Positions 22,985 to 23,534 of a stretch of DNA of 33,102 nt are shown piece by piece. Below the pieces are notes generated by a model. That model was not told the origin of the DNA. It did not search any database and worked only from the letters and a program-made list of their open reading frames with translations. The stretch is from contig JACSRF010000403.1 in NCBI GenBank assembly GCA_014879875.1, positions 1-33,102 on the forward strand. Reading direction: 5' to 3'. The stretch's first letter is position 1. Every line of letters starts with the position of its first letter. A program made the translations under genes and the position numbers. This stretch comes from Anaerolinea sp. GTDB taxonomy: Bacteria; Chloroflexota; Anaerolineae; Promineifilales; Promineifilaceae.

Positions 22985-23476
22985 GCCCCAGTAGCTCAAA
23001 GGACAGAGCGCCGGACTTCAATAGGAGCCTTTATCAGGAAAATAAACTGATAAAGTGGACAGCACTATATCGGTGAAACCTTCCAGATAACACTGATGGC
23101 AACACCGAGGAAACCTTCGATCTCCTTTTCCTGGTAAAATAAAGCGATTTTTTAGCAGAGGGTTGTAGACTGCATCATACAAAAAACAAAGGCGATCTTG
23201 ACGTTTTGAAAGCTCAAGCTGATCTGGTATTTCCAGCCCGAATGGTTTGACAAATCTGTTAGTTTGAGGGTAAAAGCGCCAAAAAATAATCAAAAGTCAG
23301 TCACCTTACTGACTGATGATTATAGAAGGGTTCCGTAGAGACTACACGTGCTGCACCTGAGATGGTGAAGATATAGTCCAGACTACAAACTGAATCTGAG
23401 CAAGCCTCTATCAGGTAGCGAAAGCTATAGTAGTATGCTAATCCGTAGGTTGGGGGTTCGAGTCCCTCCTGGGGTG
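22985..23476 (+). tRNA. tRNA-Arg(UCU), interrupted by a group I intron
   Basis: Exon 1 is 22985-23018 (nucleotides 1-34) and exon 2 is 23438-23476 (35-73). Joined, they give a 73-nt tRNA: acceptor GCCCCAG with CTGGGGT (G1-U72 wobble), D-stem GCTC/GAGC with GG in the loop, anticodon stem CCGGA/TCCGT with one C27-U43 mismatch, anticodon loop CTTCTAA with UCU at 34-36, T-stem GGGGG/CCCTC and T-loop TTCGAGT. CCA is not encoded. UCU reads AGA and AGG arginine codons. The gene is intact only if the intron is spliced out. Confidence 0.92.
23019..23437 (+). ncRNA. Group I self-splicing intron in tRNA-Arg(UCU)
   Basis: A 419-nt intron starting after U34 and ending in G. P1: exon GGACTT against GAGCCT with the splice-site U-G pair and one A-C mismatch. 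P10: exon CTA with intron TAG just 5' of the P1 strand. P2: CTTTATCAG/CTGATAAAG (23029-23055). P3: CAGCAC (23060) with GTGCTG (23348). P4: TCGGTG (23070) with CACCGA (23103). P6: GGAAACCTTC (23109) with GAAGGGTTCC (23325), one mismatch. P7: GACTA (23340) with TAGTC (23374). P8: CACC/GGTG (23354/23364). The S element AAGATATAGTCC is at 23368-23379 and a GAAA tetraloop stem at 23416-23427. P3 and P7 interlock as the family requires. About 206 nt extend P6; no endonuclease ORF is intact. Confidence 0.9.
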
Positions 23477-23534
23477 CTGATGTAGCCGTGCGTGTTTATT
23501 GTTCACCACGGCTATTTCTTTTCAAACAACTGTT

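Follow-up and report, generated by a model that had tools for sequence, protein, structure and literature searches.

The window, a 33,102-nt stretch of an Anaerolinea sp. genome (contig JACSRF010000403.1; class Anaerolineae, Chloroflexota), contains a tRNA-Arg(UCU) gene that is interrupted after U34 by a 419-nt insertion. This insertion is almost certainly a bacterial tRNA group I intron that was mobile by homing, whose endonuclease gene has since decayed and that still splices. Its anatomy and site, its relatives, an exact empty site and the remnant of the endonuclease gene could all be established from DNA sequence.

The split tRNA-Arg(UCU) gene and its intron

All features described here lie on the forward strand. 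The 5' exon (22985–23018) runs from the acceptor 5' strand to U34 and the 3' exon (23438–23476) from C35 to the discriminator G73. When the exons were spliced in silico, ARAGORN called a complete tRNA-Arg(tct) with no encoded CCA end, in agreement with an earlier interpretation made from the sequence alone (the sequence-only reading), which had placed two halves of one tRNA at these positions. The intron-free allele of the same-genus genome G001 matches the 5' exon up to U34 in alignment, and the 3' exon is 94–100 % identical to intron-free alleles in close relatives. Standard scanners had been expected to miss or miscall the gene, and they did so: default ARAGORN called zero tRNA genes in the window, and with introns allowed the split gene was misread as tRNA-Ser(gct). 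A probable intrinsic terminator, identified by sequence and fold (TAGCCGTG/CACGGCTA and then TTTCTTTT; −19.2 kcal/mol), stands 3' of the gene at 23483–23522.

The intron (23019–23437) is preceded by U and ends in G. It was matched by R1, a covariance model of the intron's 3' half, with an E-value of 8e-19 in a whole-genome search, the window being one of the model's seeds. In the window the intron–exon border is ambiguous by one base, with a C on both sides; this was resolved because the introns of relatives begin with U, and the boundaries then agree with the 419-nt length, the insertion after U34 and the final G given by the sequence-only reading.

As read from the sequence, P1 (23014–23029) pairs exon GACUU (23014–23018) with the guide (IGS) GAGCC (23025–23029), with a U34·G pair at the splice site and one A·C mismatch. 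The P10 candidate, UAG (23022–23024) with CUA of the 3' exon, has just 3 bp in the window. The P2 hairpin (23030–23054; 23030–23037 with 23047–23054) was assigned by covariation across same-site introns, the P3 5' strand CAGCAC (23060–23065, pairing with 23348–23353) by the P3 pairing test, and the P4–P5–P6 region (23071–23118; P4 is 23071–23075 with 23103–23107) from sequence and relatives. The P7 5' strand GACUA (23340–23344) and the P3 3' strand GUGCUG (23348–23353), together spanning 23340–23353, were again assigned by covariation. A class-wide pairing test placed P8 (23354–23357 with 23364–23367), J8/7 (AAGAUA) and the P7 3' strand UAGUC (23374–23378) within 23354–23378, followed by the P9 region (23382–23437) with its outer stem (23382–23386 with 23430–23434), a GAAA-capped hairpin (23416–23427) and the terminal G (23437).

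Support for this core was drawn from 84 tRNA-Arg(UCU) introns at the same site, 73 of which were readable by the P3 test. Of 34 distinct combinations of the P3 strands, which are far apart and interlocked with P7, 31 were paired at 6/6 positions, whereas 2000 shuffles never gave more than 12. For P2, pairing was complete in 38 of 45 distinct combinations, and shuffling reached 12 at most; P7 covaries (GACTA/TAGTC, GGCCA/TGGTC and GACTG/CAGTC); and a GG(A/G)G guide is found near the 5' end of every intron (84/84). Across 81 introns of the window's class, P7, P8 and three P9-region helices had 96.7 % standard pairs; shuffling gave 75.2 % and sliding no more than 43 %, in an alignment that leans towards the structure because it was fitted to the model. 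P4 pairing is possible in the window and most relatives, with 6 of 10 distinct pairs fitting against a shuffled maximum of 7. The sequence-only reading had proposed helices P1, P2, P3, P4, P6, P7, P8 and P10 with an interlocked P3/P7; P2, P3, P7 and P8 are supported and P1 fits, P4 being weaker and P10 short.

No match to the Rfam group I model RF00028 reached the cut-off in the window or the whole genome. The gathering cut-off of this model (50 bits) is a sensitivity criterion and not a defining property of group I introns. It was passed by the same-site introns L212 (61.1 bits), L099 (57.6 bits) and L217 (55.4 bits) and by the viral same-site introns L292 (81.5 bits) and L299 (74.1 bits), those passing being mostly short. 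The miss is judged a sensitivity problem, since same-site relatives pass, and is probably explained by the insert within the window intron; the Rfam search that had been proposed from the sequence is thus negative on the window copy and positive on its relatives. Core covariation and these relatives support the original interpretation, in which the tRNA-Arg(UCU) gene is split behind U34 by a group I intron. The anticodon-loop host and the GAAA loop were both observed, and the intron is probably IC3-like.

Endonuclease decay and empty sites

In the same-family genome G380 (L082), the intron at this site is 622 nt long and its reading frame is intact. Its product belongs to Pfam family PDDEXK_5 (PF11645; E 8e-38, 130 bits against a cut-off of 26.1) and matches PDB 2OST (I-Ssp6803I; E 4e-5). 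Two pieces of this endonuclease were located in the window intron by tblastn and BLASTP. The N-terminus remnant (HHTKNKGDLDVLKAQ, 23167–23247, intron frame 2) matches the intact protein at 63 % over 27 aa (4e-7 by tblastn, 3e-8 by BLASTP), and the C-terminus remnant (23222–23338, intron frame 3, ending in RVP-stop) at 47 % over 38 aa (1e-10 and 8e-12, respectively). Residues ~29–100 (about 70 residues), including the PD-(D/E)XK catalytic motif, are absent, and the stop codon stands directly 5' of P7. By these similarities, the large P6–P7 insert is what is left of a broken PD-(D/E)XK homing-endonuclease gene, a feature that was missed when the group I call was correctly made from the sequence. 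Further decay states of the gene were found at L081 and L273, and a search of plasmids returned no match to the endonuclease. In the tRNA-Arg(UCU) intron at L123, the endonuclease gene is antisense to the tRNA (tblastn frame −2).

In a DNA search of 59 related genomes, the gene was split at the same site in three other family members and in a single genome from a different family within the class, and many genomes had intron-free tRNA-Arg(UCU) alleles. The comparison for such alleles had been suggested by the sequence-only reading, and it yielded an exact empty site: in G001, the neighbourhood aligns on both sides with exactly the intron absent. Within one genus, three of six genomes are without the intron. 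At one and the same position the intron is present in some genomes and precisely lacking in others, the pattern by which a mobile intron is recognized.

R1 matched 7 of 52 genomes in the family, six at tRNA-Arg(UCU) and one at tRNA(CAU) (G032), and 58 of 396 genomes in the class. ARAGORN with introns allowed gave wrong isotypes at many of these loci, so a stem-matching script with a null test was used instead. The class hosts were tRNA(CAU) after U33 (27, including G032), Leu(UAA) after U34 (18), Arg(UCU) after U34 (14), Lys(UUU) after U34 (4), Tyr(GUA) after U35 (3, plus probably L149), Lys(CUU) after U35 (3), Val(UAC) after U34 (2), Ser(UGA) after U34 (1) and apparently 23S rRNA (L150, L158); a few weak matches are not assigned to any of these hosts.

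Several genomes of the class (L079–L158) had two to four R1 matches each. At L153–L157 the matches were weak and were followed by sequence other than a tRNA 3' half; GTAACAGAATGTCGGTCTC occurs downstream of those in L154–L156, and the flanks are partly alike among several loci.

Same-site introns in distant bacteria and phages

A genome collection was scanned with a pattern made of the core plus CTAA, the 5' half lying outside the pattern, and at least 114 stretches were found. Among the matches listed, 69 of 80 loci rejoin to tRNA-Arg(UCU) after U34 by the stem-matching script, against 0 of 320 at that score for opposite-strand or shuffled upstream DNA. At least eight named phyla of bacteria have introns at this site, as do viral contigs. 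The rejoined records among the matches listed are from Gammaproteobacteria, Alphaproteobacteria, Bacillota, Bacteroidota, Omnitrophota, Desulfobacterales, Hydrogenimonas (Campylobacterota) and Chloroflexota, and for Armatimonadota and Elusimicrobiota the matches listed consist of the core and 3' exon only. Named Chloroflexota records include cores identical to those of L090 and L099. The sequence-only reading overlooked how common the same-site intron is: it is not confined to this bacterium but widespread across bacteria and phages.

In a tree of the core, which has few columns and many open forks, the Arg(UCU) introns form more than one group. Those of the window's family sit among Bacillota, Bacteroidota and Gammaproteobacteria Arg(UCU) introns, and a further Arg(UCU) set of this class groups with Omnitrophota as well as with introns of Lys, Val and Ser tRNAs. 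The endonucleases of Arg(UCU) introns in different phyla are mostly 47–63 % identical to that of L082. Together, the tree placement and this identity favour site-specific transfer among distant bacteria over a local origin. A local origin would mean that the intron of a tRNA-Leu(UAA) or tRNA(CAU) gene in the class moved in by reverse splicing, rather than homing; this bears only on where the intron came from and leaves the splicing mechanism proposed below untouched. The Leu(UAA) introns do lie after U34 behind the same GGACUU target, and hosts are intermixed at deep forks of the core tree, but the window-family introns group apart from their own class's Leu and CAU introns as far as so few columns and so many open forks allow, the Arg(UCU) intron endonucleases of different phyla resemble that of L082 at the identities given, and the one enzyme of a Leu intron that was tested in the class proved to be HNH. 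We consider such a local origin unlikely.

The core pattern also matched 43 viral contigs (L278–L320), about 33 of which rejoin to tRNA-Arg(UCU), and many of these split genes are near other tRNA genes. The long viral introns contain mostly HNH-like frames; two that were tested were HNH and a third was PDDEXK_5. Proteins near sampled viral introns match phage families, e.g. DNA ligase, primase/helicase and phosphatase, and some of the contigs may be proviruses or host DNA. According to a review, all phage introns known in 2014 were in protein-coding genes (PMC3984707). Free-standing relatives of the endonuclease adjoin intact tRNA-Arg(UCU) genes in Synechococcus phage Sf-FR1 (L275, 2351–2926, 60 % identity), Acinetobacter phage Herod (L276, 1906–2441, 41 %) and a viral contig (L321, 1501–1970, 58 %), possibly an intron-free homing arrangement. 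We lean slightly towards the view that tRNA-Arg(UCU) is a major overlooked home of group I introns in bacteria, with its own PD-(D/E)XK lineage, and that the intron is ferried between phyla by phages, in which split tRNA-Arg(UCU) genes occur as well as free-standing endonucleases next to unsplit ones.

Predicted splicing, need for the tRNA and known tRNA introns

In the proposed mechanism, the precursor would be transcribed and the intron would fold with exon GACUU paired to guide GAGCC and U·G at the splice site. A guanosine cofactor would cut after U34, which would then attack behind the terminal G. Ligation of the halves would yield, after maturation, tRNA-Arg(UCU), the reader of AGA. The intron would have arrived by homing, with the lineage's PDDEXK_5 endonuclease cutting intron-free tRNA-Arg(UCU), a target presumed from the gene's location. 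The window copy has lost the endonuclease gene through an internal deletion and a frameshift, and with this loss the intron would splice yet be unable to move by itself.

The genome is a 6.9-Mb draft in 680 contigs, 94.3 % complete, and its tRNA content was determined with an RF00005 search and ARAGORN. Neither found a second tRNA-Arg(UCU) in the assembled part; the other tRNA-Arg genes are ACG, CCG and CCU. Among the 501 arginine codons counted in 20 ORFs of the window, 14 are AGA. Splicing is very probably required by the cell, because no other UCU gene is assembled, AGA is used and a terminator-like hairpin is present. The missing 5–6 % of the assembly could hold an intact second copy. The sequence-only reading had considered that such a copy might exist while this one decays; none was found in the assembled genome, and the ribozyme core is conserved, with only the endonuclease remnant decaying.

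Two alternatives were weighed. The intron could be dead and the tRNA a pseudogene, with another, unassembled tRNA-Arg(UCU) serving the cell, as the fragmented and incomplete draft and the broken endonuclease gene would allow. This appears extremely improbable given that the tRNA stems and ribozyme core residues are intact, that P3 and P2 of the window diverge in sequence from those of relatives with pairing retained, that the assembly yielded no further UCU gene and that the terminator-like hairpin still stands 3' of the gene. Alternatively, the insert could be group I-like without being autocatalytic alone, its removal needing proteins such as a splicing cofactor. Some group I introns require protein helpers in vivo (reviewed in PMC3984707) and the window copy has a long degenerate P6–P7 insert, but the group I signature is kept (U before, G last, P3/P7 pseudoknot and J8/7) and bacterial tRNA introns, the closest studied kind, include self-splicing members (PMC3984707), which makes this very unlikely. 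Most probably, then, a mobile tRNA intron is seen here at a stage when its endonuclease has decayed, and it is kept because the tRNA is needed.

Leu(UAA) introns are likewise group I introns in the anticodon loop of a bacterial tRNA and are present in the window's class after U34, behind GGACUU; the Anabaena tRNA-Leu(UAA) intron has the same GGACUU exon and the same GAGCC guide. They differ in that the host here is tRNA-Arg(UCU) and the endonuclease of the lineage is PD-(D/E)XK (a remnant in the window), whereas the tested Leu enzyme of the class is HNH. The Synechocystis tRNA-fMet intron with I-Ssp6803I is also an anticodon-loop tRNA intron with a PD-(D/E)XK homing endonuclease, although in another tRNA; the Arg-intron enzyme resembles it only distantly and its gene is broken in the window. 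The Ile2 and fMet introns, too, belong to group I and interrupt the anticodon loop of a bacterial tRNA, in other isoacceptors and at other positions in the loop. Split tRNA genes of these two kinds escape tRNAscan-SE (PMC8450103). The tmRNA T-loop introns, likewise group I at fixed sites of a tRNA-like RNA, occupy their main site in 21 phyla, few with endonuclease genes (PMC11915505); their endonucleases are LAGLIDADG, in contrast to the anticodon loop and PD-(D/E)XK of the Arg(UCU) introns.

The bacterial tRNA introns named in the papers searched are Leu, fMet, Ile and Arg(CCU) (PMC3984707, PMC8450103, PMC4033280, PMC5733544), and no earlier report of a bacterial tRNA-Arg(UCU) group I intron was found in the open-access literature, as the sequence-only reading had supposed. 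Cyanobacterial 'group I introns' of 22–49 nt in tRNA-Arg(ACG)/Gly/Lys (PMC5733544) were discounted, since a group I core needs far more sequence than that. By analogy, the window intron would work like known bacterial tRNA introns, the new elements being its host isoacceptor and its endonuclease lineage.

The finding adds an isoacceptor to the known hosts of bacterial tRNA introns and shows that standard annotation (ARAGORN, Rfam RF00028) can overlook a tRNA gene that the cell needs. It brings together at one site the states of a homing life cycle, namely empty, with an intact endonuclease, with a decayed endonuclease and as a bare ribozyme, and the phage genes adjoining tRNA-Arg(UCU) offer a way to test how the intron spreads.
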